Source of the DNA: Cymodocea nodosa
Taxonomy: Eukaryota > Streptophyta > Magnoliopsida > Alismatales > Cymodoceaceae
Length of the DNA stretch: 64,000 nt
Assembly (NCBI GenBank): GCA_036874045.1
Contig: JAZBRI010000008.1
Span: forward strand, 9,501,001-9,565,000
Direction: 5' to 3'
Part shown: piece by piece, positions 23,896 to 59,077 of the stretch
Layout of the letters: every line of letters starts with the position of its first letter
Numbering within the stretch: the first letter of the stretch is position 1
Notes under the pieces: model-generated
Database searches by the model: none
Seen by the model: only the letters and a program-made list of their open reading frames with translations
Told to the model about the DNA's origin: nothing
Translations under genes and position numbers: made by a program

Positions 23896-24932
23896 GACTA
23901 CTAAGATGACTGTACCTTTTAGAGACATTACAAGAGTTGTAGAACATATAAATTAATTAGAACAACAATTAGAAAATCTTTAGAAAGAAGTAGATAAACT
24001 TAGGAAGAAAGATTAAAATGTATTATTTATCTACTTATGCTGAAAAAAATATATATTTGTATGAAAATGTAAATTATTTATATATATAAATGTTTGAACA
24101 TCAGATATTTCTGAATTAATATTTATGAATGAATGATTTTAAGCTAAATTGAATATTATATAGTGGCTTAAAAATGTGTAAGACTATTTTAAAAGTTTTA
24201 TAATTTTATGAATAATGTGGATACATGCACGATGAATTGATAATATATATTTGCATACTGAAAAGTAAAATGTAATTTTTGCATAACAAGAAATGAACTG
24301 TAAGTTAAATATCCATGCGTAAATCCGAACACTACAATAATGTAATGTATTCAACTTTATTTAAGTTGATAAAATGCAAGAAAAAAATATAGAAGTTAAG
24401 ATGAGGAGTAAGTTTTTAGGAAAAAATTTGCTAAGTATTAACTCAATCAAGTCAATAATAAAACATAAGGTCACACCATTGAGTTATCTGTAACTCAACA
24501 AAGTTAATCCATGGAGTTAGCAAACATTAAATGAGGCTAGTCCATTGAGTTATCTATAATTCAACGAGGTTAGTTCGTGAAGTTAGCTTAACGGTTATTC
24601 TTTTCTCTACAAACGAAACTTCATGAGTTTAGTAGTTACTAAAATTTGAAATTAAAAGTGGAACACATATCTATAAAATAGGAACCATACTGCACATTAT
24701 AAGACTCATTCTTACAACAAGATTTATTTGCCTTATGGACGTGCATTATAAATATAGAACAAAAAGTTATTTACGAGTTACTAGCACTTGAGGAAAGAAA
24801 AGAAAATTCCTTGGGAAACTAGAAAGAGATGCAACTGATTCAACTTCATCTATCAACAACTATTTACTAAAAACAAAGCATCAGACTAGTATGTAATTAA
24901 TTTTCTACTATTTTACTTTATGTTAGGAGTTT
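23896..24932 (+). other. E1 leader region
   Basis: Untranslated region upstream of gag. From about 24240 to 24890 it aligns with 50590-51270, the stretch directly upstream of the F-box ORF of element B (shared: gcataacaagaaatgaactg-like, aacgaaacttcatgagttta-like, caacttcatct). It holds palindromes at 24478-24590. A GTATGT at 24889-24894 would be a good splice donor. A short broken frame at 23908-24015 (VPFRDITRVVEHIN..LEQQLENL..KEVDKLRKK) could be a coiled-coil remnant of unknown origin. Confidence 0.6.
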
Positions 24933-25968
24933 ATGAGCACATGGACTCGTTCTCCTAGTACTAAACGATTAGTAAGAACATCTACATAGGATTATTCAAC
25001 ACTAAGGCATACTGAAATATTTTCTAAATTGGACTTTAATGAAATCCTTAGGGGTGTAGTTAACCTTTCTTTAAAGGAGAATAAAGATATAGCTAGCTCT
25101 AGTAGAAAAAACATTAGGGGAAATTCTGTACCTTGAATTAATTGATGAACCTTCATGTATTTGATTGCCAAACTTTGAGAGAGATAGGTTTGAACTGAAA
25201 TCTAACTATATTAGTCAATTGCTACACTTTCATGGGTTAGAAAGAGAAGATGCATGTTTAGAATGAAAAAGTGCATATTATTAACGGTTAAATGATGGTT
25301 AATTGCATAATATTTAGCTTATCATATGAGAATTAAGCCATTATGTTATAATTGCACTGTTATATGCTTTAATTGAAGAATCTGCTTAATTTTGGGGAAT
25401 TAATGTTAATTTAGTACATCTATGAACTGTCGGTAAGTTGTAAGCTGTGAAATTCTTAAGTATCCGAATTTTTTGATAATTCGGACAGTTATGTTTAATA
25501 GACCGATCATGTCGAATAGTTATGTTTAAATTGCCGAGCAGTTATGTTTTGAAAGTTTCCTGAAGTTAACAACTGGTCGTTTCGTTGCATTAATTTCTCA
25601 TTTAGCTAAACATTAAGTTAACGTGTGTTTTTATTGAAAAGCATGATATGTTTTAAAGTTATATCTTCTATATCATGAACAGTGCACGTTTTGATAACTT
25701 GTTAAGTTAGTGAGTAAAAGAAGAGACGAACTCATTAAGTTAACATAACTAAACGTGTTGAGTTGCTATATTGAACACTAAGGCAACGCGTTAAGTTAAC
25801 GTTATATACTTAAGTTCTTATTTTTGCACGTGGTAAAATTCTTATTATAAAAACATTTGTTTATTACTGAATCGGTGAGTTAGCTGTAACTATCCGAAAA
25901 TGCATCTGAGCATCGGATAGTTAGACCTGTAACTCTCCGAAATGTTATTTTATGTTTAAACTGTTGTT

Positions 25969-25978
25969 GACACGTGTC
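25969..25978. promoter_or_regulatory. G-box palindrome in LTR A
   Basis: GACACGTGTC, a perfect palindrome and a classical bZIP/bHLH binding core. The same ten bases are in LTR B at 54120-54129. CACGTG also occurs in LTR C near 47388, in LTR D near 29514 and, reversed, near 56970. Its location upstream of the TATA box fits a U3 enhancer site. Confidence 0.5.
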
Positions 25979-26277
25979 GAGATCTGGTAGATTTACTTAA
26001 CTCGTTAAGTTAGCATAACTGTACGCGTTGAGTTACATGAATATACACTAAGGTAACGCGTTAGGTTAGCGGCTTATTTCTTTATTGCATGTATTTTATA
26101 GTTATTTTCCAAAATGCCACTATAGCGGTTGTAGGAACAAACAGTTGAAAGGAAAAACCACGTTTGCATGTATCACGCAGGAATTCAATCACGCAGGGAG
26201 AAAGAAATCATCGCCGTTGATCTGAAGGAAGGAAATCCAACCGATCATTCAAGCAGAAGTAGTTACTACTGAAGAAA

Positions 26278-26285
26278 TATAAAAG
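26278..26285 (+). promoter_or_regulatory. TATA box of LTR A
   Basis: TATAAAAG, about 1.02 kb inside the LTR. The same box sits at the same place in LTR C (47735-47742) and LTR D (29874-29881). In LTR B it is weaker (tataagaaa near 54692). It probably marks the U3/R border about 30 bp downstream. Confidence 0.55.
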
Positions 26286-28560
26286 AAAAGAAGAAAAAAA
26301 GGTGTGATCGATGGACGGCCAGTGTATACAGAGGAGAAGCACCGAGCCTTTTGCAGACAATATCAACGATTCTCCGAAGTATAACACCAACCATCGTTAT
26401 CACCACTATAATCACCAATCATTGGAGGTCTATGAGGATACTTGCCTAATATTGGGTCGATTCCGAGTCAAACACAGTACTTGACAACCATTGTGAGGAG
26501 TGATCGCGTCACGAGAAGGAAAGACATTTTCACCAAGCGCCAACTCATATTTCAGGAGATCGTAAAGCTTTTAGCCTTGGCTTCGGGTTGATGCCTGTAT
26601 GCTGAAGAGGAGATCATCTTGCAATTCTGAACTCGCGATTCTATAGGGAGAGGAGACAGAATTGTAAGTGGTTTAATTTTCAGTGGTGTAATCACGTTGC
26701 AAGTAATGTCGGAAGTATTTACTGTCAAGTGAGATTACTTTACATTTCACCTTTCGCCCATTTCCATGTTCACATCAAAACAAAAATACCAAAAACAATT
26801 TATCTTTGTTTGTATGTTGTATTTGAGTGTTGTATTATTTGTGTTGTATCGTAATTAATGTTATCTGTATCAGTTTTATGATTGTTTTATGTTAGTTTTA
26901 ATTTTACAGTTTACTGCAATTGGTTCGTACAAAAAACTTAAAGATTTTAATGGTGACTGTTTGAATCATCTGAATGTTAGTATTGCTTAATGATAAATCC
27001 AATGTTAACTAGCATTAAAAAGCTTAATTGATGTTATTTACAATCTGTGGAATCGCCCGATGGTTGGCCGAATTCCTTTGTAAATAGCAGTATTATAAAG
27101 AAGAGACAAGCTCGTGGAGTTAACTTAAGTCCACGAGGATAGTCCGTTGAGTTAGCAATAACTCAACGAACTTAGTCCGTTGAGTTAATTGTAACTCAAT
27201 GGAGTGCTTATTGAATATAAATTTGAATTGTTCACAATCAAACATTTCTTAAATTCGTAAGCAATTCCTTGTGGGATCGACTTATACTTGTACACTGATA
27301 CAATAGACACTGTGCACTTGCAGTTAAAGTACAAATTGGAATTAATATCTAAATTGTATTAAAGGTTGTTTGTTTACTTCTAAAAGAAAGAATAGGCATA
27401 AAGATAAATTAACTAAGTAAAAATAGAAGTAACAAATCCAAGTTTTTCTAGTGTAGTGCTAGGAAAACCCAAACAATGCCTATTATTTCCTTAGAGAATT
27501 TAATGAATTTGTCAAATGATGAAAATGTCAAACATGAGTATTAATGCTATTAAACCTAGATATATCCCTTTTGTTTTAAAAGACATTGCTAAGAGATGGT
27601 TATATACACTGTCGCCTAATTCAATTTCTACATGGACTAAATTTTACTCTATTTTTCTAGAAAAATATTATCTAACACACCAAATGATTAAAAAGAAAAA
27701 GGAAATATTAATGTGTAGCCAAAAACAAGGAGAATCATTCTAGAAATATTTTGAAAGATTTAAAGATTTACTAACTCAATGTCCACATCATGCAATGAGT
27801 AAAGTACAATTAATAGGTATAATTTATGAAGGCATAGATGTTTCAACCAAATCTTTATTAGAATCTACTTGTCATAATGGATTTTTAAAACTATGTAGTG
27901 AAGAAGCATGGGCATACTTAGAAAACTTTGCAAAAAGAACTACACAGTGGAAAAACTCAACTGAAGCTATTACAAATAAAAGAATATTACCAAAGGAAAT
28001 GCACGAAATAAATTCAAGCACTATGCTTGAAGTTAAATTAACTGAATTAACAAAGAAAATAGAAGAGTTATCATTAAATCAAAAGTTAGCAGAAAGGAAT
28101 GCAAATATTAATGACTTAAATATTATTTATGCTAGAAACCAGAAAAATAACTTTGGAAACTCTTATAGCTCTAATTAGAGAATCACCCGAACCTATCTTG
28201 GAGAAATAACAATTACTAAGGAGGAGAAAATATAAATGACAAAAATATATGTTATGAAGCATTAATTGAACAAGGATTTAGAATAGAGAAGTAAGAAAAG
28301 ATAATTCAACAATTAAACAATCATCTAGATCATGTATTTGGAAATATTGCCATTCAAAATTAAAATATGAATAGAAATATATACCCTAGACAGAAGGAAT
28401 CAATAGAAGTTAGACCTACTAGAGGATTGCCAATGCAAGCAGCACCTAACCCTATCAATAGAATTGTTAATGAAATTGATAACTCCTTTAGAAGGGAAAT
28501 TGAATGAAGTAGTATAATTGAAGCAGCTATGTATAATATAGTAAGTAGAAAAATATAAAA

Positions 28561-28719
28561 AGAAAAAAGTAAGTTTAATTATAATTAGTAATATCGTAGA
28601 GTTATTACTTAACTCAACGAACTTAGTCCGTTGAGTTATGACCTAACGCCATGAGGGTAAGTAGCTATGTTAATTTTATCTCTGCTAAATTTTGTTTATG
28701 TTATACATAATCACAACAG
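28561..28719 (+). other. E1 spacer between gag and F-box ORF
   Basis: Holds one palindrome (tactcaacgaac..gttgagtta type, 28600-28650) and ends in 'ataatcacaacag' immediately before the F-box ATG at 28720. This is a good 3' splice-site match, so the ORF may be expressed from a spliced RNA (inference). No pol sequence is present. Confidence 0.5.
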
Positions 28720-31674
28720 ATGAAATTACCACTAGATGCATTAAGGGAAGTACTAAGTAACTTATCAGCTAAAGATCTATGTAGAATGTGTTGTGTGTCA
28801 AAGGAAATTAAAGAATGTGTTAGAGAAAAATATTTTTATGGACTACAAGCTACAAAAATGACAAATATTAGAGATGGATTTTTATAGAAGACATTTAATT
28901 GTAGTTCAAATAGGTATGAATATCTGAATATGGAAGAAACTGCTAGAATTCCACCTAATACATTAGAAGGAATAGATCATATTATGGGGATGGATGAAGG
29001 ATTAATTGTTTACAAAACCAAAGTAAGGTATGCAATTCTATTACCCTATATTTTGATTAGAAATCCTATTACTAGAGAAGAATAGAATAAAATACTATTA
29101 TATTAATGGTTAAATCATAGTTAATTGCATAATATTTAGCTTATCATATAAGAATTAAGTCATTATGTTATAATTGCACTGTTATATACTTTAATGAAAG
29201 AATCTATATAATTTCAAGGAATTAGCGTTAATTAAGTATATTTCAGAACTGTCGGTGAATTACAAGCTTGTTAATTCTCAAGTATCCAAATTTTCTATTA
29301 TTTTAGAGAGTTATATTGTTGTACCAAACAGTTATGTTTTAAATGCTAAAGGAATATTTAGGTACACAATAACAACTCATTGAGTTACAGGTTTAAAGGT
29401 GTAAAAAGATCACATAAGAACTCGTTGAATTAGTGAGTAAAAACTGTAAGTTGTACATTTGTACTCGTTAAGTTAGAATTATGCATGTGTTGAATTTAAA
29501 TGTTTTACTATGTCACGTGAGCTGTACATGTTTAACTCATTAACTTAACATAATTATACACATTGAGTTACTTGAATATACACTAAGATAACACATTGTG
29601 TTAGTGTTATAATCTTATAAGTTATTTCTTTATTGCCATGTTTCATAGTTAAATCAATAAAGTAAGTCCAATGAGTTACACTAACTCCACGGACCTTTTA
29701 TTTTCTAATATGCCACTATAGCAATTGTGGAAACAAGAAATTCAAAGGAAAACCACAATTGCATGTACCACGTAGGAATTCACAAGTGGAATGAAGAATA
29801 AATCACCATCGTTGATATGAATGAAGGAAATCCAACCGATCATTTAAGAAGAAATAGTTACTACTGAAAGAAATATAAAAGACGAAGAAAAAGAGTGAGG
29901 AGGAAGGTGGAGAACTGCGTTAATTGCAGGAAACGTTAGAAATTCCTCGAAGTTCCACACCACCACTAAAATCACCAACCATCGGAGGTCTGTGAAGATA
30001 CTTTTTGGATGTTGGGTTGATTCTGAGCCAAACATGGTGACTGATAACTACTATGAGGAGTGATCGCATCGGAGGAAGGGAAGTCATTTTCACCAAGCAT
30101 CAACTCATCTCCTAGGAGATTGTAAAGCTTCTAACCTTGGTTTCGAGTTGATGCCAGTATGTTGAAGAGGAGATCATCTTACAATTCTTGGTTCACAATT
30201 CTATAGAGAGAGGAGGTAAGATTGTAAGTGATTAAGTTTTCAGTGGTATAATCACGTCGCATGTAGTGATGGAAGTTTTTACTGTCGATAGAGATTTTTA
30301 CATTTCACCTTTCACTTATCTTCAAGAACATATCAAAACAACAAATTATCTGTGTTTACATTTATTATTAAAATGTTGTATTGTTTGTTTTGTATCGTGA
30401 TTAATGTTATCATTGTCAGTATTGTGAATGTTTTATGTTTGTTTGATTTAGAAAATAGAAAATAGTTTTATTGTTTACTGAAACTAATTTGTTTCAAATA
30501 CTTAAAGATTTTAATAGATAGTGTTTGAAATATCTGAATGTTAGTGTTGCTTAATATAAATGTTAATGTTGAATGTTAGTGTTGCTTAATATAAATTCAT
30601 ATCTGAATGTTAGTGTTGCTTAATGCTTTCTGTGTTGAGTTAATTGTAACTCAATGGAGTGTTTAACTGAATGCATATAAACTCTAATATAAAAATCAGA
30701 ATAATATACAATTCTTACTCAATCTTTGTAAGATCGACTTGTACTTGCACATAAATACAATATACACTGTGTACTTGCAGTTAAAATATAAATTAGACTT
30801 AATATCTAATTTGTGTAAAAGGTTGTTTGTTTACTTCTATAAGAATTTATTAATATAAGCACAAAAATAAATCAAACAAGTTTTTCTAGCACTACCGTAT
30901 AGACAAGTTTTTGATTTAACTTTTCACACCTAAACAAGTATCAACTGAAAATTGTGGGTCAGCATTAACATTTTCTAATAAAAATTTGACCATTCCTGAA
31001 AAATTGTATTACTAGAGACTAACTAGAAATTGGGATGAGGATTTATGCTTAAGTGTGTATAATTTTCTAAATAGATCTTGGACTAAAAATACTATGATAT
31101 ATCTAGGACAGAAAGTATTAATTAACAACATACATGTCATATTTGATGGATATATATATCTAGTCATAGATATATCAGTTGCATTTAGATCTGATTTATA
31201 CATAATAAGCATAGATAGTTATGATGATGACTTTATAGAAATATTGCCTACACCTAGTGATATAGCTAAACCACCATCTGTAGAATATGATAAAATTTAA
31301 TTAGGAGTATGGTATAATGAACATGACATCCTACTTTATGTCTGATAAGATGGTGGGATGAACTGATGAAATTTCAAATATGGAATATGAAAGACCTAAA
31401 TGAATGGAAGTGGGAAGAGGAATATATTGAAATATATGTAGAAATAGAAGCAACTACATTATATTGGAATAGAAGAGGATCCCTTTCTGCATTTCAATTT
31501 ATTAATGGTAATACACTTTTATTTAGTATTGATAACATACTACAAGTTTACAAGTTAAAAAAGAGAGTAGAGTGCATTAAAATAGAATTAATAGCAAAAA
31601 GAATTATGCCTAAAAAGTTTGCTTAGAATGATACGTTTATTCCATTTGTTATAACTTTTCAATCATGTTCTTAA
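28720..31674 (+). pseudogene. F-box protein ORF, copy 1 (E1), split by solo LTR D
   Basis: N-terminal part 28720-29088: an F-box at residues 2-40 (KLPLDALREVLSNLSAKDLC, then CCVSKEIKECV), then NRYEYLNMEETARIPPN, IDHIMGMDEGLIVYK and YILIRNPIT. C-terminal part 30937-31674: NCGSALTFSNKN, DLCLSVYNFLNRSW, MIYLGQKVLINN, VIFDGYIYLVIDISVAF, WDELMKFQIWNMKDLNEWKW, and a final FQFINGNTLLFSIDNILQVY block like plant F-box-associated domains. F-box proteins normally bind SKP1 and choose targets for ubiquitin ligases. There is a frameshift near 31330. Nonsense codons at 28885, 31013 and 31624 are each TGG to TAG when compared with copy 2. The ORF lies between gag and the 3' polypurine region of the element, in sense orientation. 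Confidence 0.85.
29083..30936 (+). mobile_element. Solo LTR D, TGTTTAG family, inserted in F-box copy 1
   Basis: The left end has lost the TGT (tagaataaaatactattata); the right end is CCTAAACA at 30936. Comparison with F-box copy 2 shows that about ten codons of target are missing at the left junction, so a small deletion removed the target duplication. The interior follows LTR A, including TATA (29874-29881) and a CACGTG near 29514. A short direct triplication of 'gaatgttagtgttgcttaat' lies at 30535-30625. Confidence 0.85.
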
Positions 31675-33194
31675 ACTGTGATTTTGTACTTTTAATGTTG
31701 TGTACTCTGCATTTATTTTTAGAAAAGAAAGAAAAAATTTTAGTTTTTGTTTTATTTTATAAGAAAAAGAAAAGACAAAAAAAATAACAATCCAATTTGT
31801 TGGTATCTATTCTAGGAAACCAACTAGCTTGCTTGTGAGCCACCAAAGGCATAGGAGTCTGGCTTTCACACAAGACATTGATTTAACAATTTATGTTTTG
31901 TTGTTAAGTTGTTATTTTGTTATATATTCTGCTTTTATTTGTTAATGAAAAGTTTTTCAGAATCAAAAGTCGGAAGATATTGAAGGAGATATAAAAGAAC
32001 AAGGTATGTAATTGATTACTTATCCTGAATTTACATTTAAACATAGTTTGTGGAGTTATTCATTAACTCAACGAATTAAGTTCGTTGAGTTAGGTGCTAA
32101 GTCAACGAAACAATATTCACACCTGCTAACATTTACTATATTTACTGTAAATTTTTTACATTGAGGACAATGCAAAATGTAGGTATGGGGGGAGGTAATT
32201 AGATTAAATCTAAGTAATCTTGTTAATTAGAGGATTATGATGGTGCTGCAAATTTCTGTAGAAATTGAAATTTTTTTTTTATGAAATTGAAATTTTTAAT
32301 TGTAACTAACCAATAATTGAGACTATCAAATTTTTAAGAACTATAACTACTTGAATATTATATATAGTATCTTATGTTTTTGCTGAATTTTATGAGTTTA
32401 ATAGTTTCATGATTTTAAAAAGAAATCAAAATGCTTAATTGAAACTCAGTAAATTATCTGAAATCCTAAAAGTGCTGAAATGTTGATTTTTGGATTAAAT
32501 GAAATACATATGATCAATGATACATTTAATTTGATTGATTAAACCTGTAGAATGATTTATGTGTAAATCTTATTAAACTATAGAAAAAGTATGAGCTTAT
32601 TGATATGGATTCATGTTTTCAATAAATTATAGAAGTAGAATTATATGAGATTTGTGTTTTACTACATCTATATGAATGAAATATGTATATATACTATGTT
32701 GAAAAGAAAAAAAGGGAAAAAAGAGAAAAACTTTGAGAGTTTATTGATTTGTTTGATCACGAGCCTTTTGTACTTGAGCAGATAGGTATGTAAGTATTGT
32801 TGACTTAAAAAATGACTCTTTAAATCTGGCAACCTAAAATCCTGATCAGATCTGGGATTGTTGACTGAAAGCTCGATACATGGGTACATTAGAAAGCTCT
32901 TGTATGATTCAAGCTTTTCAAATTAACTTTTAAAGTACAAATATGCATATACTATTTTGAAAAGATAAAAGTTTTTTGTGAAATACAGATATCTTTTAAA
33001 TCTAGTATATTTTCTGTTATCTAAGATTACTGAAGTATGAATCTAGATTAGACTTTTGAAGTTATTTATTTGAGATACAATTCATTATTCTTCTTATTTT
33101 AATCACATTGAGTTGGATTATGTTTTGATTCGTATGTAGAAATTTATTCTGAAAATCATATTAGAAAATTCAGATCTTTGAAAAAGAAAATGAT
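31675..33194 (+). repeat. E1 3' internal region with conserved non-coding boxes
   Basis: Non-coding and AT-rich. Box 1 (31827-31857) contains gcttgtgagccaccaaaggc; it also occurs at 52580-52610 and, reversed, near 58684-58715 and 49221-49250. Box 2 is CATTGAGGACAATG at 32159-32172, followed by a purine run aggtatggggggagg, and is shared with 52840 and 6316. A palindrome lies at 32055-32105. The rest aligns with 52850-53420 and, reversed, with 57190-58400. The 3' end is joined directly to an LTR tail, so the polypurine tract and most of the 3' LTR are deleted. Confidence 0.7.
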
Positions 33195-33401
33195 AATATA
33201 ATTACCACATACAATATACATTGTACACTTACACACAAATACAATATATATTGTGCACTTGCAGTTAAAAATACAAATTAGACTTAATATCTAATTTGTG
33301 TGAAAGGTTTTTGTTTACTTCTAAAAGAATTTATTAATATAAGAATAAAAACAAATCAAACAAGTTTATGATTTAACTTTTCACAAACTAAACACCTTGG
33401 T
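33195..33401 (+). mobile_element. 3' LTR remnant of E1
   Basis: Only the last 207 bp of the LTR remain: 'ttgtgcacttgcagttaaaa', 'gtttacttctaaaag', 'cttttcacaaactaaaca'. It ends CTAAACA at 33401, the same terminus as LTR D. Confidence 0.8.
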
Positions 33402-35857: not shown

Positions 35858-35865
35858 TATATAAA
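35858..35865 (+). promoter_or_regulatory. TATA box of the purine permease gene
   Basis: TATATAAA. If transcription starts about 30 bp downstream (near 35890), the ATG at 35882 would be outside the mRNA and the in-frame ATG at 35918 would be used. Confidence 0.45.
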
Positions 35866-35881
35866 TTGGAATCAATTACCA

Positions 35882-45478: not shown

Positions 45479-45973
45479 TTCTTTTTTCCTACACATCAAT
45501 GGCCGTAATTACTCCTTTGTTTCACAATAGAGATCATAGGTGTGAATTATGCAACATGGTTTTCTTATGCATTTCTTATAATTGCTTATAATTGCATATT
45601 AAATACAATAACTGGTTCATAAAGTTAACATAACTCAATAGACTAATTTTGTTAGGTTAACTGCTAACTCAATAGACTATCTTTGTTGAGTTACCGTGTA
45701 ACTCAATGAACTTGTTCAGTCTTGTAGTTTAGTAATATAATAGAACAATTTATATAAATACTACATAGGCGTAAACAACATTTAATAATATATAAAAGGG
45801 AAATTTTGAAATAATTTCGAAATGATACTTAATTAACATTAATTTCTTGAAATTATGCATATTCTTTAATTAAGTAAATGTAACATAATGGCCTAATTCT
45901 TATCTAATAGCTAAATAACATGCCATTAACCATTCATTAAGCTCTAATATTATGTATTTTTTCATTCTAAGCA

Positions 45974-46903
45974 CTTCTCACATACCTAAATTTTCCTAGT
46001 CATTTAGTAAACTTGCTATGATAATGATTTAGATTTTTTTCTTTCTAGAATGAAAGGACTACATTACTTGTCTTTTTAAATCTGTCTTCCTTCAAAGTCC
46101 ATTCTCAAAAAGTTAATCACAATAATATGTCACTACAAATAGAGATTTATGTAATGCTTTTTCACTACCTTATCCTAATCTCAAACCATATGTACCTTAT
46201 AAAGATATGACATTAATCAAGACTTCTGTGTACATATTCTCGTCCTCTAGAATTATTGATGCATCTTGGTAATAAGCTCAAAAATAATATCTACTGAGAA
46301 TAATTGCTTCCTTGTTGATCGTAAAGTTTTCTTGTCTTAGACTTAGGATAAATGAACAGGGATAGATGATACGAATAAATTTTGGAAAGAGATTTTTCTC
46401 TTCTTTTTTTTTCTTTTCACAATACATAACTTTAACTTCCCCTGACCATGGTGATTCATGGTTTAATAAATGAAAAATTGCTAAGGGAAGACAAGAAGTA
46501 TAGGCATTACTATATGAGGAAAATAATTCCTAGATAAATAAAATTTGACTACATTGCCTTCTATTAATTGCCTTGGTTAACCCCATTATAAAGATGAAAA
46601 TACATAGTGATTGAGACTATTCATAGATAGCTAGGAATTATTTTTCAACTCTATTCAAGTGAAATACTTTGAAAATGAGTTACTCTCTTAAAAATGGTCA
46701 ATTTTGGAAGGTTTTAAGAAACTCACTAAAAAAACCAAAAACTCTAAGCAAATCCTACATTTTTTCAAATTAGCAAAAAATTTCTCAAAAAGCTAGAAAA
46801 CATTTCCAAAAAATTTCCTTTTCTCATTGATGCACATATAAAATGACAAGGTTTGCTTTTATCTAACTACCTCTCCTTCATACCAACATTTTGCATTGTC
46901 CTT
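45974..46903 (-). repeat. 3' internal region of the minus-strand family member, left part
   Basis: Reverse complement of the E1-type 3' region between box 2 and the LTR. The box-2 sequence (accaacattttgcattg, rc) lies at 46880-46898 and is cut by LTR C. No coding frame. Confidence 0.65.
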
Positions 46904-48893
46904 TGTTTAGAATGAAAAAGTGCATAATATTAATGGCTAAATGATGGTTAATTACATAATATTTAGCTTATCATATGAGAATTAAGCCATTATGTTATAA
47001 TTGCACTATTATATGCTTTAATAAAGGAATCTACATAATTTCAGAGAATTAATGTTAATTAAGTACATTTCTAAATTGTTAGTGAATTGTAGGTTATGAA
47101 ATTCTTAAGTATCTGAATTTTCTATTATTTTGAAGAGTTATATTTAAAGTATCAGACAGTTATATTTTAAATGCTAAAAGAATACTCAGGTACACAGTAA
47201 CAACTCGTTTAGTTAAAGACTTAAAGATGTAAAAGACACAGTAACAACTCATTGAGTTACAGGTTTAAAGGTATAAAAAGATCACGTGAGAACTCGTTGA
47301 GTTAGTGAGTAAAAATCGTAAGTTGTATATCTGAACTCGTTGAGTTAGAATTATGCATGTGTTGAATTTAAATGCTTTAGTATATCACGTGAGATGCACA
47401 TGTTTAACCCGTTAAGTTAGCATAACTATATGCGTTGAGTTACTTGAATATACATTAAGGTAATGCATTATGTTAGCAGCTTATTTCTTTATTGCACGTG
47501 TTTTATGGTTAAATCAATGAAGTAAGTCCGTTGAGTTATCTGTAACTCCACGAACCATTTATTTTCTAATATGTCATTGTAGCAGTTACAGAAATAGAAC
47601 ATTCAAAGGAAAACCACGATTACACGTATCACGCAGGAATTTACTCATGGAATGAAGAAGAAATCACCATCATTGATATGAATGAAGGAAATACAACCGA
47701 TCATTTAAGCAAGAGTAGTTACTACTGTAAGAAATATAAAAGACGAAGAAAAAATGTGTGTGCAGAGGTGGAGAACCATGCTAACTGTAGGAAGTGTCAG
47801 AAGTTCCTTGAATCTCCACACCACTACCATAATCACTAACCATTGGAGGTATGTGAGGATACTTTCTTGATGTCAGGTCGATTCCGAGCCAAACATGATG
47901 ATTGACAACCACTGTGAGGAGTGATCACGTCGCGAGAAGGGAAGCCATTTTCACCAAGCACCGACTCATATCTCAGGAGATCGTAAAGCTTCTAGCCTTA
48001 GTTTCGGGTTGATGCCAGTATGTTGAAGAGGAGATCATCTTACAATTTTGGATTCGTGATTCTATAGGGAGAGGATGCAAGATTGTAAGTGATTAAATTT
48101 TCAATGGTGTAATCGCATCGCATGTAGTGATGAAAGTTTTTACTGTTGATAGAGATTTTTACATTTCACCTTTCATTCATCTTCAAGAACATATCAAAAC
48201 AAAATACCAAAAGTAACAAATTATCTGTGTTTACATTTAGTATTAAAGTGTTGTATTGTTTGTTTTGTATCGTGATTAATATTGTCATTGTCAGTATTAT
48301 GAATGTTTTATGTTTGTTTGATTCAGAAAATAGAAAATAGTTTTATAGTTTATTGAAATTGATTCGTTCTAGATACTTAAAGATTTTAATGGTTACTGTT
48401 TGAAATATCTGAATGTTAGTATTGCTTAATGATAAATCTAATATTAACTAATATTAAAGAGTTTAATTGACATTATTTACAATCTGTGGAACTGCCCAAT
48501 GGTTGGTCGAATTCCTTTGTAAATAGCAGTATTTAACTAGAAAGATAGGCTCGTGGAGTTAACTTAAGTCCATGAGGTCAATTTGTTGAGTTAACCATAA
48601 CTCAATGAACTAAGTTCGTTGTATTAACTATAACTCAACGGAGTGCTTAACTGAACACATATAAATTCCAATATAAAAACTGGAACAATACACAATTCTT
48701 ACTCAATTTTTGTAGGATCGACCTGTACTTGTACACAAATACAATATACACTGTGCACTTGCAGTTTAGACACAAATTGGAATTAATATCTAATTTGTGT
48801 GAAAGGTTGTTTGTTTACTTCTAAAAGTAATTATTGATATAAGCATAAAGACAAATTAAACAAGTTTAAGAATTAACTTAACAACCCTAAACA
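46904..48893 (+). mobile_element. Solo LTR C, TGTTTAG family, 1990 bp
   Basis: Ends TGTTTAG (46904) and CTAAACA (48893), with target duplications TCCTT (46899-46903) and TCCTC (48894-48898). The target is box 2 of a minus-strand relative: the uninterrupted form cattctcctcaatg is at 58391-58404. TATA box at 47735-47742, CACGTG near 47388, palindromes at 47285-47350, 47520-47545 and 48555-48645. Confidence 0.92.
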
Positions 48894-49429: not shown

Positions 49430-49671
49430 ATTTAAGAATATGACTAGAAAGTAGTGGCATATGGAATGAATGTATTAGTCCATGCAAAACCTTTAGGCAT
49501 AACTCTTCTCACTTTTAATTCCACTTCTATTGACTTTGCTCACCTCCTTAAATGATAAACTTAAAGTATATTATCAACACTAAATATCAAAGTATTACCA
49601 TTAATGAATTGGAATGTGGTAACATTTTTTCTACTCGACCATAATGATTTAGGTGTTTCCACTTTCACAAA
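49430..49671 (-). pseudogene. F-box ORF copy 3, C-terminal end, minus strand
   Basis: Read on the minus strand: a FVKVETPKSLWSS block, FQFINGNTLIFSVDNIL, one stop, then RRVMPKGFAWTNTFIPYATT and the terminal SYS. This matches the last about 80 residues of copies 1 and 2. The rest is cut off at 49671 by a copia-type LTR. It shows that the ORF is also present in a third, oppositely oriented member. Confidence 0.8.
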
Positions 49672-50422
49672 TGTAGGATCGAATGGCTACACAAGAGGGG
49701 GGTGAATTGTTTTTTCAACATTTCCAATCATAATTGAAACTTCAAAATTAAAAACAAGTCGAGACACTATTTTAATCAAATCATTTTATTCAAGATTTCA
49801 ATTACAATATACATTTCAATTCTCTTGAGAAATTGTAGATGAAATCATATAATGATACCAAGTTTCATCTAATCAATATCATAACTACAAATAGAGAAAA
49901 TTAATTTACGAAATTTAAAACATTTCTCCCTGTTTGAGATTTTTCTTTTTCTTTTTCTTATTCTTCTTCTTCTTTTGTAATTCTTCAGTAACAAATATCT
50001 AACTTTTTCTGTTTCATTAAATTTGCTTTCTTCTGATTCTTCAAATCTTCAGTGATATATATCTAACCTTCTCTTCTTCATTGAATTTTCTTCTATTTGA
50101 GAGTTTTTCCTTGGAGAGGTGTTTTGATCCTTGAAAATATATTTCATTTGATGTGCAGGGATGATTGATCAATGAGAATTCTATGTCTTTTATATTATAT
50201 CTTCATTTCATGCATATCCTCTATGTTTAACCATAATCAGTTTTCCACTCTTCATGTCTTCTCTTTTTCCTTCATCGAAGTACACACGTTCTGACCTACG
50301 TTTTCCTTTCGAATTTTCTTTAATGATCAATCTTGGATCTCTAAAAAATTTTCTACAAAATAAACTTTCTCATCCAAAATTTTCATCAAGTGTAATAATA
50401 AGTCATTGTGTTAATATTTACT
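49672..50422 (-). mobile_element. Copia-type solo LTR, minus strand, about 750 bp
   Basis: The left end is TGTAGGATCG with caagaggggggtgaattg at 49697, the reversed form of the usual copia LTR 3' end. The right end is near 50422. It is the inverted partner of 23143-23895. No coding sequence is attached on either side, so it is probably a solo LTR. A target duplication is not clear. Confidence 0.7.
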
Positions 50423-51273
50423 AAACGAGTAAAATAAGTAGATTTATAACTTAACATATCTAACTTAATGAGTTTATCATGTGTCAAATCACGTAACAAG
50501 TATTGTAGCTAACTCAACGAACTAAGTCCATGGTGTTACACTAACTCAACGAACTAAATAGATTTACAATTTGCTGAATGATAGGATAAATGCTTAAAAA
50601 TTTCTGCATGTTACAAGGTAAAATGTAAATTCTGCATAACATAAAATGACCTGCAAGTTAAATGTTTATACAATGTTCAGATTTAAACGTATTTTAATTA
50701 AAATGATGCATTAATGACATAGATTTAACTTTATTTCAGTTAGCAGAATAAAAAAAAAAAAAAGAACAGAGAGGAACTTACGAGAGTAAAACTTAGAGGT
50801 TGTCAAGTGTTAACTCAACGAAGTAAGTCCGTTGAGTTAACCGTAACTCCACGAGGTCAGTAATATAATATAAGGTCACTCCGTTGAGTTATCTGTAACT
50901 CAACGAAGTTAGTCCGTGGAGTTAGCAATAGTAATCGACTGTGTTCCGTTGAGTAACCTGTAACTCAACGAGGTTAGTTCATGGATTAAGCAGAACGGTT
51001 ATTTTTTTAACCACGAACGAAACTTCGTCAGTTTAGCGGTTACCAAAATTTGAAATTAGTAGTGGTACACATACCCATAAAAATAGGAACCACGATGCAC
51101 ATTGCAAAACACGTTCTTGCAACGAGATTTATTCACTTTATGAATGTGCAATATATATATAACAGAATGTTATTTACAAGTTACCAGTACTTTTAAAAGA
51201 AAGGAGAATGCGTTGGAGGAACTGGAAGGAGAAGCAGTTGATTCAACTTCATCTGACAACAAATATTTTTTGA
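50423..51273 (+). other. Element B leader / upstream region of F-box copy 2
   Basis: From about 50590 it aligns with the E1 leader (24240-24890). It has a cluster of palindromes at 50811-50975, including a perfect 10-bp inverted repeat with 4-base loop at 50882-50905. An (at)n TATA-like tract lies at 51151-51162. The first 150 bp are unresolved and may be a small LTR piece. Unlike E1, no gag follows; the leader runs directly into the F-box ORF. Confidence 0.6.
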
Positions 51274-52439
51274 ATGGAAAGCTTTAGACTGAATCGACAA
51301 ATGGAATTGATGCAATTACCATTGGATGCACTAAAGGAAGTAATGAGTAACTTGTCAGCTAAAGATCTGTACAAGCTATGTTGTGTATCAAAGGAAATTA
51401 AAAACTGTATTGAAGAAAAATATTTCAGGGACTACAAGTTGCAAAAATGACTAAAATTAGAGATGGATTCATATGGAGGTCATTTAATCGTAGTTCAATT
51501 AACTATAAATATTTGGCTATGGAAGAAACTATTGGAATTCCACCCAATGCATTAGAAGGAATAAATCATATTATGGGGATAGATGAAGGATTAATCATAT
51601 ACAAGATGAGACCAAGGTATGCAAGTTTATTATTACTTGATATTTTGATAAGAAATCCTATAATAGGAGAAGAATGGAATATAGGAAGACCTAATAGATT
51701 TGAAGTACCAACTGTAAATTGTGGGTCAGCTTTAATATTTTCTAATAAAAATTCTGCAATTCATGAAAAATTATATTATTGGAGACCTACAGGAAATTGG
51801 GGTGAAGATTTACGCTTAAGTGTATATAATTTTCTGAATAGGTCTTGGAATGAAAGTATTATGATATATCTAGGACAGAAATCATTAATTAACCAAACAC
51901 ATGTCATACTTGATGGATATATATATCTAGTCACAGATATATCAATAGCATATGGATGTGATTTATATATAGTGAGCATAGACAGTTATGATGAATATAT
52001 AGAAATTTTACCTGTACCGAGTGAAATAGCTAAACCACCATTTGCAGAATTTAATAAAATTCAAATATAAATGTGGCATAATGAAGAAGATGATCCTACT
52101 TTATGTTTGATAAGATGGTGGGATGAACTGATGAAATTTCAAATATGGATTATAAAAGACATAAATGAATGGAAGTGGGAAGAAGAGTATATTGAAATAG
52201 ATGTAGAAATAGAAACTGCTATATTACCCTGGAACCAAAAAGGATCTCTTTCTGCATTTCATATCATTAATGGTAGTACACTTGTATTTGGAATTTATAA
52301 TATATTACATGATTACAAATTAAGAAGGAACAAGAATTGCATTAAAACATAATTAATAGCAAGAAGAACTATGCCTAAAAAGTCTGCTTGGATTGACACA
52401 TTTATTCCATTTGTTTCTACTTTTCAATCATGTTCTTAA
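51274..52439 (+). pseudogene. F-box protein ORF, copy 2 (element B), nearly complete
   Basis: About 389 codons. The start at 51274 (MESFRLNRQ) is preceded in frame by a stop. F-box at residues 12-50: QLPLDALKEVMSNLSAKDLY, CCVSKEIKNCI. A one-base deletion near 51427 (seen against copy 1) shifts the frame, which then stays open from 51447 to 52070. It includes NYKYLAMEETIGIPPNALEG, HIMGIDEGLIIYKM, LLLDILIRNPIIGEEWN, VPTVNCGSALIFSNKNSAIH, LRLSVYNFLNRSWNESIMIY, VILDGYIYLVTDISIAYGCD. Two in-frame stops (52068, 52350) precede the last parts: LIRWWDELMKFQIWIIKDIN, FHIINGSTLVFGIYNILHDY and a terminal SCS. The family is F-box with an F-box-associated C-terminus, a substrate receptor of SCF ubiquitin ligases. 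Only three lesions exist, so it is recent or was selected until recently. Confidence 0.87.
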
Positions 52440-53624
52440 GCTATGATTTTGTGTGTTTAATGTTGTGTGTATTCTGCATTTATTTTTAGAAAAAAAAAAG
52501 AGAAAAGAAAAAATATATAATTTTCATTTTATTGTATAAAAAAAAAAACAAACAAAATATCAATCTAGTTTGTTTGGTGGCTTGCTTGTGAGCCACCAAA
52601 GGCATAGGAGCCTAGGTTCCACACAAGACACTGATTTATCAATATTTGTTAAATGTTATTTTATTTTATATTTTGCTTTTATCTGTGAATGAAAAGTTTT
52701 TCAGAATAAAAAATCGGAATATGCAGAATGAGATACAAATGAAATAAGGTATGTAACCAATTACTTACCTTGAATTTTAAATCAAATAAAACTGTATTCA
52801 TGTCTGCTACAATTAATGTACTTATTGTCAAATTTTTTACATTGAGGACAATGCAAAATGTAGGTATGGAGGGGAAGGTAATTGAAGTAACAACCATGTA
52901 AGTTTGTTAATTAAAGAAATTAAAATGGTACTGCAAAGTTTTGGAAATTGAAAATTTTTATGAACTTGCTGTAACTATCCGATAATTGAGACTGTAAAAT
53001 TTATATAAACTGTAACTGCTTGAATGTTATATTTAGAAGGTTATATAAGATGCTATAGAATTTAATATTTATGCAAATCTAGATATAGTATCTTATGTTT
53101 TTTCTGAATTTCATGAGTTTAACAGTTTCACAATTTTAAAATATACATATAATGTTCTGAAAAAATACAAGTGTTTTGTGAAATACAGATATCTTATGAA
53201 TCGAGTATATTTTCTGTTATCTAGAATTGCTGTAATATGAATCTAGAATTAACTTTTGAAGTTGTTTAATGGAGATACAATTCTTTATTCTACTTGTCTT
53301 AATCATATTGAATTAGATTGTATTTTGATTCGTATGTTGTTGAAATTTCTTTTAGAAATCTTATTGGAAAATTCAAGATGATAGATGATGAAAAGAAGAA
53401 CAAACAATAATATAATTAACACTTATGTGATGATGATATATTTTGTATGTAATTTGCATATATTCTAAGTATATTTGCAGGTTGATTACTGAAACATATA
53501 GAATATATTTTTATGCTAAACAGAAAAAAAGAAAGGAGAAGAATTAATTCTAGCACTTTTAGAAAGACTAATTAATTAGATCTTAATTTGCTAAGGGACT
53601 AGCAAAATTTAGGTATAGGGGAAG
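52440..53624 (+). repeat. Element B 3' internal region
   Basis: Non-coding. Box 1 at 52580-52610, box 2 (CATTGAGGACAATG) at 52840-52853 followed by aggtatggaggggaagg. It is collinear with E1 31675-33190 and continues to a polypurine tract that E1 has lost. Confidence 0.7.
53609..53624 (+). other. Polypurine tract of element B
   Basis: tttaggtataggggaag ends directly at the LTR start TGTTTAG (53625). It would prime plus-strand DNA synthesis. The reversed equivalent in the minus-strand member is next to 45973. Confidence 0.7.
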
Positions 53625-55851
53625 TGTTTAGAATGAAAAAGTGCATATTATTAACTGTTAAATGATGGTTAATTACATAATATTTAGCTTATCATATAAG
53701 AATTAAGCTATTATGTTATAATTACACTGTTATATGCTTTAATTGAAGAATCTGCTTAATTTTGGGGAATTATTGTCAATTTAGTACATTTCTGAACTGT
53801 CGTTAAGTTGTAGGCTGTGAAATTCTTATGTATCCAAATTTTCTAATAATTCAGACAGTTATGTTTAACATATTGAACATATTTGGACAATTATGTTTAA
53901 CAAACCGAACATGTATTGGATAGTTATGTTTAAATTGCCGAACAGTTATGTTTTGAGAGAATATTTTATTATTTCCTGAAGTACACATGTCAAAACTATA
54001 ATGCATGACTTAAGTGAACTTTCAGTGAGTTATCTATAACTATTCGAAATTGCAGTTGGGCATCAGATAGTTATCCCTATAACTCTCCGAAATCTCTTTT
54101 TATTTATAAAATAACTGAGGACACGTGTCATGTTCTGGTAAAGTGACTTAAGTGGATTTTTGGTGAGTTAGCTGTAACTATTCGAAATGCATTTGAGCAT
54201 CGGATAGTTAGACCTGTAACTCTCTGAAATGTTATTTTATAATTAAACTGCTGCTGACATGTGTCGAGATCTAGTAGATTTACTTAAGTTATATATCGGT
54301 GAATTATTTGTAACTATCCGAAATGCATATAAGCATCAGATAGTTAAGTTTATAAGTATCTGAAATACACCTGAGTATCGGATAGTTAAATTTATGCACG
54401 TGTTGAATTTAAATGCTTTAGTATATCACGTGAGATACACATGTTTAACTCGTTAAGTTAGCATAACTGTACATGTTGAGTTACATGAATATACACTAAG
54501 GCAATACGTTATGTTAGCAGCTTATTTCTTTATATTTTCTAATATGCCACTGTAGCGGTTGTAGGAACAGACAGTTGGAAGAGAAAAAACCACGTTTGCA
54601 CGTATCGTGCAGGGAAAGAAATCATCGCCGTTGATATGAATGAAGGAAATCCAACTGACCATTCAAGCAGAAGCAGTTACTACTGAAGAAATATAAGAAA
54701 AAAGAAGGGTGTGATCGATGGACGGCCAATGTATACAGAGGAGGAGCACCGAGCTTTCTGCAGACAGTATCGGCGATTCTCCAAAGTATCACACCAACCA
54801 TCGTTACCACTACCACAATCACCAACCATCGGAGGTCTGTGAGAATACTTTCTTGATGTCGGATTGATTCTGAGCCAAACACAATGTCTGACAACCACTG
54901 TGAGAAGTGATTGCGTCGTAAGAAGGGAAGCCATTTTCACCAAGCACCGACTCATATTTCAGGAGATCTTAAAGCTTTTAGCCTTGGCTTCGGGTTGATG
55001 CCTGTATGCTGAAGAGGAGATCATCTTGCAATTCTGGACTCGCGATTCTATAGGGAGAGGAGACAAAATTGTAAGTGGTTTAATTTTCAATGGTGTAATC
55101 ACGTTGCAAGTAGTGTTGGAAGTATTTACTGTCGAGTGAGATTACTTTACATTTCACCTTTCGCCCATTTCCATGTTCATATTAAAACAAAAATACCAAA
55201 AACAATTTATCTATGTTTGTATGTTGTATTTGAGTGTTGTATTGTGATTAATGTTATCTTTGTCAGTGCTGTGATTGTTTTATGTTGTTTTAGTTTTACA
55301 GTTTACTGAAATCGATTCATCCAAAAGACTTAAAGATTTTAATGGTTACGGTTTGAATTATCTGAATGTTAGTATTACTTAATGATAAATCCAATGTTAA
55401 CTAACATTAAAGAGCTTAATTGATATTATTTACAATCTGTGGAATCGCCCAATAGTTGGCCGAATTCCTCTATAATAGTAGTATTAAAAAGAAATGATAG
55501 GCTCGTTGAGTTAACTTAAGTCCACGAGGTTAGTCCATTGAGTTAGCCATAACTCAATGAACTTTGTCCGTTGAGTTAACTGTAATTCAACGAAGAGCTT
55601 ATTGAATATATAAATTTGATTGTTAACAAACAAACAGTTCTCAAATTCTTCAGCAATTCCCTGTGAGATCGACCTGTACTTGCACACTGATACAATAGAC
55701 ACTGTGCACTTGTAGTTAAAGTACAAATTGGACTTTAAAGGTTGTTTGTTTACTTCTAAAAGAAAGAATAGGCATAAAGATAAATTAACTAAGTGAAAAC
55801 AGAAGTAACAAATCCAAGTTTTTTTAGTGTAGTGCTGGGAAAACACAAACA
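53625..55851 (+). mobile_element. LTR B, 3' LTR of element B, 2227 bp
   Basis: Ends TGTTTAG (53625) and ACAAACA (55851). The polypurine tract at its left shows it is a 3' LTR. The flanks (ggaag, acata) do not match, so it is not a solo insertion. It is closest to LTR A in length and content: 'aactatccgaaa..catcggatagtt' words repeated at 54020-54390, G-box palindrome at 54120-54129, three gttgagtta palindromes at 55500-55600. It is joined on the right to a gypsy RT fragment. Confidence 0.9.
54120..54129. promoter_or_regulatory. G-box palindrome in LTR B
   Basis: GACACGTGTC, the same ten bases as in LTR A at 25969-25978. A one-base variant (gacatgtgtcgag) is at about 54256, where the sequence around it repeats. 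Confidence 0.5.
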
Positions 55852-56560: not shown

Positions 56561-57180
56561 GGAACTTCCGACACTTCCTGCAGTTAACTTGGTTCTCCAC
56601 ACTTTCTACCATTTTCTTCATTCTTCTCTTCTTCTTTTTATATTTCTTTCAGTAGTAATTGCTTCTACCTAAATGATTGGTTGAATTTCCTTCATTCATA
56701 TCAACGATGGCGATTTCTTCTTCATTTTGCAATTTAAATCCTACGTGATTTGTGTAATTATGGTTTTCCTTCGAATTTCCTATTTCTGCAACTACTCATA
56801 GTGATATATTAGAAAATAACTAGTTCGTGGACTTAGTGTAACTCAATGGACTTACTCTATTGACTTAACTATTAACTCAATGGACTTCCCTCATTGAGTA
56901 AAGCTTAACTCAACGGATTTGATATAAATAATATTATAAAACATGTGCAACTCACGTGATATAATAAAACATTTAAATTCACATGTACATAATGCTGAAT
57001 TAACAAGATTCTGTAACCTTAACTTTATAAGTTTACGAGGATCCATAAACTTAACTTAAAACTTTATAAGCTTCCATAACTTTAGTAATTTTACGAAGGT
57101 CTGTAAACTTACATGATTAACTTTACATGAGTATTCATATATTTCTATAAATCTACACTTAAACTAAATTTTCAATCTTT
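56561..57180 (-). mobile_element. LTR fragment, TGTTTAG family, minus strand
   Basis: Reverse complement of LTR C from its R region (cttcctgcagttaacttgg, rc) through U3 with a reversed TATA (tttatatttc at 56637) and CACGTG near 56970. 57010-57120 has several palindromic ttataagtttacg words. The outermost LTR end and the polypurine tract are not recognisable. Confidence 0.7.
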
Positions 57181-58910
57181 TAGAATTGTAATTCAGTAAT
57201 TCAATTTAACATTGTTTTTCCTCTCCAACCTGTAAATATATTTCAAAAATACGTAAATTACATAGAAAATATACTCGCATCAAATAGTTGGTAGTTATAC
57301 TATCAATTTTTCAAATATCTATTATCTTGAATTTTCCAATATGATTTCTAGAATAAATTTTCATTGCATTAGAATCAAAACACAATTCAACTTGATGTGA
57401 TTAAAACAAGAAGAATATTGAATTTTATCTCAAATAAACAACTTCAAAAATCTAATTCTAGATTCATACTTCAGTAATCATAGATAACAAAGAATATACT
57501 CGATTGAAAAGATATCTGTATCTTCACAAAACACTTTTATCTTTTCATAACAGTATGTGCATATTTTTACTTTAAAAGTTAATTTGAAAAGCTTGAATCA
57601 TATAAGAGCTTTCTAATGTACCTATGTATTGAGCTTTCAATCAACAATCTCAGATATGATCAGAACCTTAGGTTGTCAGATTTAAAGAGTCCTTTTTTAG
57701 GTCAACAATTTTTACATACCTATATGCTCAAGTATAAAAGGCTCGTGATTAAACAAATCAATAAACTCTCAAAGCTTTTTTTCTTTTTATCCTCTTTTTT
57801 TTTACATAGTATATCTATGTATTTCATTAATACAAATGCAATTAAGCATAAATCTCATATAATCATGCTTCTACAATTTATTGAAAAATATGAATCGATA
57901 TCAATAAGCTCATACTTTTTCTATAGTTTAATGACTTACACATAAATCATTCTACAAGTTTAATCAATCAAATTAAATGCATCCTTGATCATATGCATTT
58001 CATTCAATCCAAAAATTAACATTTCATCTCTTTAGGATTTCAGATAATTTTTTGAATTTCAATTAAGCATTTTGAGTTTCTTTTAAAATCATAAAACTGT
58101 TAAATTCATAAAATTCAGTAAAAACATAAGATACTATACGAGATTTGTATTAATAGTGAAGTATTGTAGTATATTATATAAGATTCTAAATATAACATTC
58201 AAGTAGTTACAATAAATTTTTTTACAGTTTTAGCTATCAGAAGGTTTTAGAAAAATTTTTAGATAGTTACAACAAAATGCATAAAAATTTATAAAATTCT
58301 ACAGAAATTTATAGTACAATCTTAATTCCTACAATTGACAAGATTACTTTAATTTTAATCTAATTACCTCTCTCCCATACCTACATTTTGCATTCTCCTC
58401 AATGTAAAGGATTTATAGAAAATACACTAAATGTTAGTAGACATGATAAACTATTTTCATTAACTTAGTTTATTGAGTTCATGAATAACTCCATGAACTA
58501 TACATAAATATAAATATAGAATAAGTAATCAATCACATACCTTGTTTTTTTGTATCTTCATTAATATCTTTCATCTTTTGATTCTGAAAATTTTTCATTC
58601 ACAAATAAAAGTAAAACATATAACAAAATAACAATTAACACAAAATATAAATTGTTAAATATGTGCCTTGTGTGGAACCTAAGCTCTGACGCCTTTGGTG
58701 GCTTACAAGCAAGTCAATTACATAACATCTATATCGTAAACTATATATGAAAGACTTAAATTTCTTATTTTTTTATCAAAACCATCACTACATTATTGAA
58801 TAATTACCACCTACAACAAAACAAAAGCAAAATCATAATTAGAAAATAAGAATATAAATTTGATTACCAACAATAAACTTTAATTACTACATTCGTAAGT
58901 ACAATACTCA
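57181..58910 (-). repeat. 3' internal region of a minus-strand family member
   Basis: Collinear, reversed, with E1 33190-31700. Box 2 reversed (cattctcctcaatg) at 58391-58404 with tctctcccatacctacatt before it; box 1 reversed at 58684-58715. No F-box sequence is recognisable to the right of box 1, so this member has lost or never had it. Confidence 0.7.
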
Positions 58911-59077
58911 CCATAGAATGAACCTAAACAATATTTGTTTTGATTACATCTCTAATAATTTTATATCTACCATAAGGTTAGAATAAAGGAAAGTTGTTCT
59001 CTACAACAACCTTGACAACTACTTCACATCATCTCAAACCTAAAGGACTTTCACAACCTTTATTAGGATCTTCACTT
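58911..59077. other. Unassigned DNA left of the copia solo LTR
   Basis: AT-rich, no frame. It ends in CACTT, the left target duplication of the next element. Confidence 0.4.

Follow-up and report, generated by a model that had tools for sequence, protein, structure and literature searches.

How the remains of one F-box gene came to lie three times within 64,000 nucleotides of the Cymodocea nodosa genome is the question raised by this stretch of contig JAZBRI010000008.1 (positions 9,501,001 to 9,565,000), here called the window, which is part of a 374.6-Mb assembly of 28 contigs. F-box proteins are part of the machinery by which the cell tags proteins for destruction. The gene is, with near certainty, cargo of one family of long terminal repeat (LTR) retrotransposons, amplified genome-wide, and its mRNA would be reached by splicing out a capsid gene.

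All three copies named in the original prediction were found, at 28720-31674 and 51274-52439 on the plus strand and at 49430-49671 on the minus strand (elements e1, e2, and e3, respectively; Table 1), and its claim that they lie in sense orientation inside one retrotransposon family, in front of common 3' boxes, holds for each of them. The sites carry one gene's remains, but none of the supposed open reading frames (ORFs) reads open. Translation of the e2 copy revealed a frameshift at about 51421-51424 and stops at 52068 and 52350, the e1 copy has several stops besides being split by an LTR, and the e3 remnant comprises roughly the C-terminal fifth only. The Pfam F-box domain PF00646 was matched above its cut-off of 20.5 bits at 51274-51447 (E 8.1e-10) and 28720-28884 (E 1.3e-11). 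Self-comparison of the window gave 82-86% likeness between the e1 and e2 copies across hundreds of bases and about 70% between e3 and e1, a likeness that exceeds chance, and placed an LTR family of about 2.0-2.2 kb (TGTTTAGAATG...AAACA) at many sites. The box motif TTGTGAGCCACCAAAGGCATAGGAG follows all three copies, with 6 mismatches after the minus-strand one, and occurs additionally in a fourth 3' end without an F-box (58708, minus strand). A polypurine tract and an LTR start were present 3' of the e2 and e3 copies, and an LTR end only 3' of the e1 copy. The order read in e1 (plus strand) is a region termed Q, gag with a solo LTR, the F-box with an LTR, the 3' boxes, and an LTR remnant; in e2 (plus strand) it is Q, F-box, boxes, polypurine tract, and LTR; and in e3 (minus strand) a region termed P, the F-box end, boxes holding a solo LTR, polypurine tract, and LTR start.

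Throughout the genome, a 34-nt F-box pattern with two mismatches allowed was found at 2,358 places and its reversed control at 0, and a pattern bridging the F-box stop and the 3' non-coding sequence at 1,582 places. As a rough estimate, with most copies at full length (about 15 kb) the family would make up close to a tenth of the genome, and many are surely partial. From an initial search, in which the best 40 of 3,926 loose candidates were scored, all 40 with at least 95% identity, 30 copies were taken (one of the 40 is the window itself and nine were not fetched), 10 of them spanning 10 kb before the F-box and the 5 kb that begin with it (first set) and 20 with 2.3 kb upstream (second set). 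The e2 F-box is 93.7-95.3% identical to 10 genome copies. The same 3' boxes were present in 29 of the 30 copies (10/10 in the first set and 19/20 in the second), L035 having none. LTR sequence came after the boxes in all 10 first-set copies, giving the order F-box, boxes, LTR, and within reach in 16 of the 20 second-set copies. A tract like the polypurine tract of e2 was printed by a script pattern for 8 of 10 genome copies. Upstream of the F-box, pol was found in 9 of the 10 first-set copies, L009 having other insertions there, and gag was present in 26 of the 30. No copy among the 30 was seen to lie outside LTR elements or to have differing flanks, save L035 with its missing boxes. The choice of copies is biased toward window-like ones, which has to be counted against the generality of this picture.

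Complete elements with both LTRs were recovered in four cases, namely, L017/18 (C19:4608777-4623308, 14.5 kb, end coordinates by arithmetic) with the target duplication ATCCA/ATCCA, L013/14 with AAAAC/AAAAC, L015/16 with TCTAC/TCTAC (read by eye), and L019/20 with ATGTC/ATATC (4 of 5 bases). The TG...CA LTR ends and the 5-bp duplications, three of them perfect, are those of LTR retrotransposons. Divergence within five LTR pairs (K80 distance) was 0.060, 0.054, 0.055, 0.059, and 0.075, mostly transitions, the last value belonging to L025/26, where another element's 3' boxes precede its 5' LTR. At a substitution rate of 1.3e-8 per site and year, these pairs would imply an age of two to three million years. 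By score, only three of seven copies had their own 3' LTR as the closest match of the 5' LTR, others being about equally close, which tells against the pairing by likeness; the pairing therefore rests on the target duplications, and near-equal distances among copies are as in a burst of copying. Inside the LTR of e2, a 136-bp tandem repeat of 2.5 copies lies at 54006-54346 (plus strand), and its copy number seemingly differs among LTRs. That the F-box genes are a dispersed host family beside which LTR elements merely inserted, as the large F-box/FBA families of plants and the solo LTRs in and beside the window copies could suggest, is scarcely credible against the 3' flank shared by 29 of 30 copies, the target duplications enclosing the F-box in four complete elements, and the 2,358 near-identical places. 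Between cargo and dispersed host gene, the shared boxes and the four LTR-bounded elements with target duplications thus decide for cargo, as had been predicted.

The stretch between Q and the F-box has the form of an intron containing gag. In gag-containing copies, Q ends at AGACTG/GTATGTAATTAAT and the F-box exon boundary reads TTATACAG/AATCGACAAATGG (slashes mark the boundaries), the donor GTATGT being found in 15 of the 18 such copies listed. The removed stretch measured 1,492-1,571 nt (about 1.55 kb, GTATGT...ACAG) in 20 of 28 pieces parsed with a GT donor required, two of the 28 being spliced copies; 17 of these 20 introns end in AG and three have a mutated acceptor. The gag-less copies L014, L016, L034, and L036 and the window element e2 carry the exact join AGACTG/AATCGACAAATGG. 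As judged from this junction (51291/51292), where Q is joined straight to the F-box exon as by the exact GT-AG removal in the other four, e2 is a spliced copy. With junction patterns of equal length and tolerance, the genome yielded 190 spliced junctions and 1,238 unspliced ones, a spliced share of 13% (190 of 1,428). On a tree of 28 copies built from F-box and 3' sequence (L029, L032, and L035 of 31 copies left out), the five spliced copies were scattered and five changes were needed; their grouping as one clade was rejected by the approximately unbiased test (p 4.9e-6). From the 190 exact joins and the scattered spliced copies, we infer that the F-box mRNA is very probably made by splicing gag out and that reverse-transcribed copies of spliced RNA entered the genome repeatedly.

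Several points weigh against this splicing. It is read from DNA copies, not RNA; only 5 of the 25 inner branches of the tree are well supported; recombination between copies could partly mimic the scatter of the spliced state; and the junction of a second splice, from a leader donor at about +780-830 to an acceptor in Q, was found at 0 genome places with up to 3 mismatches allowed. A second intron from leader to Q was dropped on that count. The alternative that gag was lost by ordinary genomic deletion is very improbable: deletions are frequent in the family (L017 shows no Q and L011 lacks part of pol) and e3 lost its gag through an inexact one, but the join is exactly GT...AG in four gag-less copies of the 30 and in e2, it is identical at 190 places, and the five copies are scattered on the tree. 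A window-only idea, that a small non-autonomous element has P and Q as its 5' leader, was rejected, genome copies having pol upstream of Q.

The position of gag sets the family apart from the usual order. It was found downstream of pol in all seven first-set copies having both; PF03732, the gag family, was matched downstream of pol in L019 and in none of the six 5' ORF stretches scanned. Because the target duplications bound the whole of L017/18 and L019/20, both of which contain gag (L013/14 and L015/16 are spliced), the order pol-gag-F-box exists within single elements. We are highly confident that the capsid gene lies downstream of pol and adjoins the F-box. Behind the 5' LTR, a primer-binding-site-like sequence, which we take to be of tRNA-Asp type, was present in all seven copies where that end is visible. 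Six of the 10 first-set copies have a zinc knuckle, about 160-210 nt from the LTR in the four with both ends visible, and the ORF between the 5' LTR and pol (up to about 260 aa) matched no Pfam family. A single ORF of 1,132 aa in L011 has the Ty3/gypsy order of protease (279-354, weak, below the cut-off), RNase H (526-653), and integrase (752-923) by Pfam. Assignment of the reverse transcriptase itself rests on DNA likeness to window pol pieces, and it counts against it that its core has no Pfam match in L011, a copy with a deletion in that part of pol. With gag not preceding pol, the family was filed as rearranged gypsy-derived and not as canonical Ty3/gypsy. Its gag, pol, and primer-binding site presumably resemble Athila. 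Weak matches to Transposase_32 (E 1.9e-4 and 1.2e-6, under the cut-off) were also obtained, a family tied to an Athila ORF in an excerpt of PMC11728184. The env position assigned to the cargo was right in that the F-box ORF lies in sense orientation between pol and the 3' LTR and would, from the DNA copies, be reached by splicing, as are some env-like ORFs; the prediction had not seen that gag is there too, inside the intron.

The gag beside the F-box might instead be a second one acquired from another element, the true capsid being a divergent protein near the 5' end. The first 1 kb or so after the 5' LTR does hold the ORF of up to about 260 aa without a Pfam family, and the zinc knuckle is located there. 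Against this, the 5' ORF matches no gag family even at E 10, resembles the downstream gag in no meaningful way (best E 2.0), and only about 160-210 nt separate LTR and zinc knuckle in four copies. A second gag is unlikely on balance, though it deserves serious weight.

The state of the F-box reading frame bears on whether the cargo is of use to the element. Read directly from its ATG, the 379-codon ORF is open in 7 of 29 copies (L029, whose F-box is lengthened by an insert, was left out); other counts of intact copies were 5 of 10 in the first set read stop to stop and 6 of 30 in an alignment without stop or frame gap, where L012 has one gap. The intact proteins are 90-95% alike, and the F-box domain was above the Pfam cut-off in L014, L012, L016, and L018. 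Comparison of e1 with e2 gave a ratio of nonsynonymous to synonymous rates (dN/dS) of 0.54 (bootstrap 0.38-0.80), with 5 of 1,000 shuffles at or below it, and, with cleaner segments, 0.52 versus 0.89 in its own shuffles (2/400 at or below). The window pol pieces gave 0.30 (2/400 shuffles at or below), and nine non-coding readings gave 0.55-0.87, a value reached by shuffles in 34 to 138 of 200. Among young copies, variants common to at least two showed 0.57 of the expected nonsynonymous-to-synonymous ratio in the F-box (p 0.003) and 0.47 in gag; for private variants, the figures were 0.78 and 0.84.

Other results weigh against a maintained F-box gene. None of six copies chosen by the 34-mer pattern keeps the ORF fully open, the contrast between shared and private variants in the F-box is not significant (Fisher p 0.13), and the non-coding 3' region gives 0.56 as well in one of its three frames (p 0.006), so that the shared-versus-private test is weakened by a non-coding control of like value. 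The comparison of rates between copies proposed in the original prediction gave mixed results; purifying constraint on the F-box is likely, not proven. A functionless passenger, captured once and spread by chance, would fit the unclean selection tests and the many broken copies (22/29, and 6/6 of those picked by pattern), although broken copies are expected of dead copies of any element. The 379-aa ORF open in 7 of 29 copies, the e1/e2 ratio of 0.52 versus 0.89 in shuffles (2/400) with non-coding readings not below their own shuffles, and the precise splice leading to the F-box ATG speak against it, and we regard such a passenger as the less probable case, without dismissing it.

On the origin and action of the protein, the searches were less informative. 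Matches to FBA_1 remained below the cut-off (E 0.0097 in the window, 0.0035 in L018, and 0.093 in L016) and were missing in L012 and L014 by Pfam, which counts against an FBA domain; one is suggested, under its cut-off. A genome search with PF07734 for a host parent gene gave 0 matches, and its controls were equally silent. No relatives of the F-box protein were found in a set of 5.8 billion proteins at E 0.001 or 0.01, in IMG/VR, or among PDB sequences up to E 1, results that say little on plants. An AlphaFold model of the FBA part, made from four window rows, reached a predicted local distance difference test score of 30 and was unusable. Judged by its protein class, the product has about an even chance of acting in an SKP1-cullin-F-box ligase. 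Silencing by small RNAs and methylation keeps plant retrotransposons in check, and, to our knowledge, few of them encode anything that acts back on the host. That this protein counters host silencing is a doubtful suggestion.

Taken together, the following model appears probable. The F-box gene is fixed and has been amplified in one Ty3/gypsy-derived family whose LTRs measure about 2.2 kb and in which the sense order is 5' LTR, primer-binding site, zinc knuckle, pol from protease to integrase, a weak Transposase_32 ORF, region Q, the intron (GTATGT, gag capsid domain, ACAG), F-box ORF of 379 aa, boxes, polypurine tract, and 3' LTR. A single LTR promoter would drive the element, and gag would be made from unspliced RNA. 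Removal of the intron of about 1.55 kb would join Q to the F-box exon nine bases 5' of its ATG and yield an F-box mRNA by a route resembling that of retroviral env mRNA. The spliced RNA was very probably packaged, reverse-transcribed, and integrated many times, and its copies, having no capsid gene, probably used the capsids of others in the same cell. The protein would most likely join the host SKP1-cullin ligase and direct a host protein, perhaps one that takes part in silencing, to the proteasome. Whether this amounts to a new genome plan, with pol first, the capsid gene in an intron, and splicing as the sole route to a dedicated F-box receptor of a ubiquitin ligase, is put forward tentatively; splicing would then decide between particle production and an attack on the host through protein degradation, and the spliced RNAs would persist as capsid-less satellites that code for pol and F-box and travel in their parents' capsids.

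Published systems were compared from excerpts of the cited articles. No description of an F-box in a plant LTR element family was recognised in the open-access library searched, most papers being judged from listings, and the word F-box is absent from the main texts, as far as available to a word search, of PMC7264820, PMC11728184, PMC11963269, PMC6317226, and PMC9289625. F-box cargo, gene order, and spliced DNA progeny were not found described in the literature searched; cargo-bearing gypsy families are already known. The excerpt on Thlaspi (PMC8764390) speaks of an F-box retrogene and of an F-box "LTR-gene", not of an element family. Giant Ty3/gypsy elements of Phalaenopsis carry an AlkB-type m6A (N6-methyladenosine) RNA demethylase, and the same study lists 15 extra domains from 121 screened angiosperm genomes (Alvarado-Marchena et al. 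2022, PMC9289625). Both there and in the F-box family, gypsy elements of a single plant lineage have taken up a cellular-type gene for good and multiplied it; the Phalaenopsis cargo is of another protein class. The elements with env-like sense ORFs (aORF-3S), Athila, Bagy2, and their relatives, share with it a sense ORF between pol and the 3' LTR, and splicing is reported for some env-like ORFs, such as that of Bagy2, but these proteins are env-like, not F-box, and their gag precedes pol (Vicient and Casacuberta 2020, PMC7264820).

Of the Ty3/gypsy reference order GAG-PROT-RT-RH-INT (Neumann et al. 2019, PMC6317226), the F-box family keeps the sequence of protease, RNase H, and integrase and differs in its capsid domain, which comes after integrase. 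According to the excerpt, that survey removed elements with unexpected domain order as likely mispredicted, so the F-box family would not have survived it. In BARE1, too, splicing separates one protein's RNA from the genomic RNA of a plant LTR element, but there the spliced RNA is the gag RNA, whereas here splicing would remove gag and spliced DNA occurs at 190 places; the part of PMC3735527 consulted states that replication must avoid integrating spliced RNA and that amplification of DNA copies made from spliced BARE RNA did not succeed. Viral F-box precedents are the polerovirus P0, directed against ARGONAUTE1, and the nanovirus CLINK, directed against the retinoblastoma-related protein, the targets being proposed (PMC3588083, in part). 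They resemble the present case as F-box proteins encoded by a genetic parasite of plants and differ from it as proteins of plant viruses, the element's own being a 379-aa F-box protein with weak FBA likeness. An F-box receptor, of the class that poleroviruses use against ARGONAUTE1, present in thousands of copies makes action on the host testable. The pol-first order with gag in an intron and the 13% of spliced junctions oppose two rules of thumb, that gag comes first and that spliced RNA is excluded from particles, and suggest that surveys dropping odd domain orders can lose real families.

Table 1. Features of elements e1 to e4 in the window
Feature	Element	Position	Strand	Basis or remark
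Region Q	e1	24335..24888	+	Ends at splice donor GTATGT (24889)
Gag intron	e1	24889..28708	+	Contains solo LTR; acceptor mutated to AT, placed by comparison with genome copies
Gag (capsid) region	e1	24900..28500	+	PF03732 9.8e-8 at 27507-27740
Solo LTR of same family in gag	e1	25255..27475	+	Flanks ATGCA/ATGCC
F-box ORF	e1	28720..31674	+	Pfam F-box; split by same-family LTR at ~29086-30936
3' boxes	e1	31675..33211	+	
Last part of 3' LTR	e1	33227..33394	+	Remainder deleted; ends CTAAACA
Polypurine tract and 3' LTR start	e3	45815..45986	-	
Solo LTR of family in 3' boxes	e3	46904..48893	+	Flanks TCCTT/TCCTC
C-terminal F-box part	e3	49432..49671	-	tblastn 1.4e-17, alignment
Region P	e3	49720..50461	-	Upstream of F-box remnant, joined via inexact deletion
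Region Q (exon upstream of gag intron)	e2	50709..51291	+	Alignment to e1
F-box ORF	e2	51301..52439 (ATG at 51301)	+	Pfam F-box, translation
3' non-coding boxes	e2	52440..53611	+	
Polypurine tract	e2	53612..53624	+	GGTATAGGGGAAG immediately 5' of TGTTTAG
3' LTR	e2	53625..55851	+	TGTTTAG...CAAACA, 2227 bp
3' boxes of further element	e4	57102..58713	-	No F-box found upstream

In e1, the gag frame continues across the empty site once the solo LTR at 25255-27475 is removed. The element e4 (58716-60800, minus strand) has the family 3' boxes, with unrelated sequence at the expected F-box end, its likeness beginning at about the CTTGCTTG box. The 9-mers TAACTCAAC and GTTGAGTTA occur 40 times in the window, where base composition predicts 0.8, and often form inverted pairs about 20 nt apart (e.g., 28610-28638, 32064-32092, and 50811-50839), and their sites are the LTRs, region Q, and the positions immediately before and after the F-box.

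Elsewhere in the window, a gag at 4482-6345 (plus strand), with no pol or F-box seen after it, is followed by the same conserved box 2 (6315) and perhaps belongs to a related element without cargo. An 83% direct repeat, 687-1490 and 8287-9105 (plus strand), flanks an old pol/gag region and perhaps represents the LTRs of another element. Further direct repeats on the plus strand are 44014-44331 and 45165-45482 (93% alike) and 43845-44017 and 44336-44516 (91% alike). One clear ordinary host gene was noticed, a purine permease gene of two exons at 35840-37543 on the plus strand (PF16913, E 1e-50 and 1e-38).
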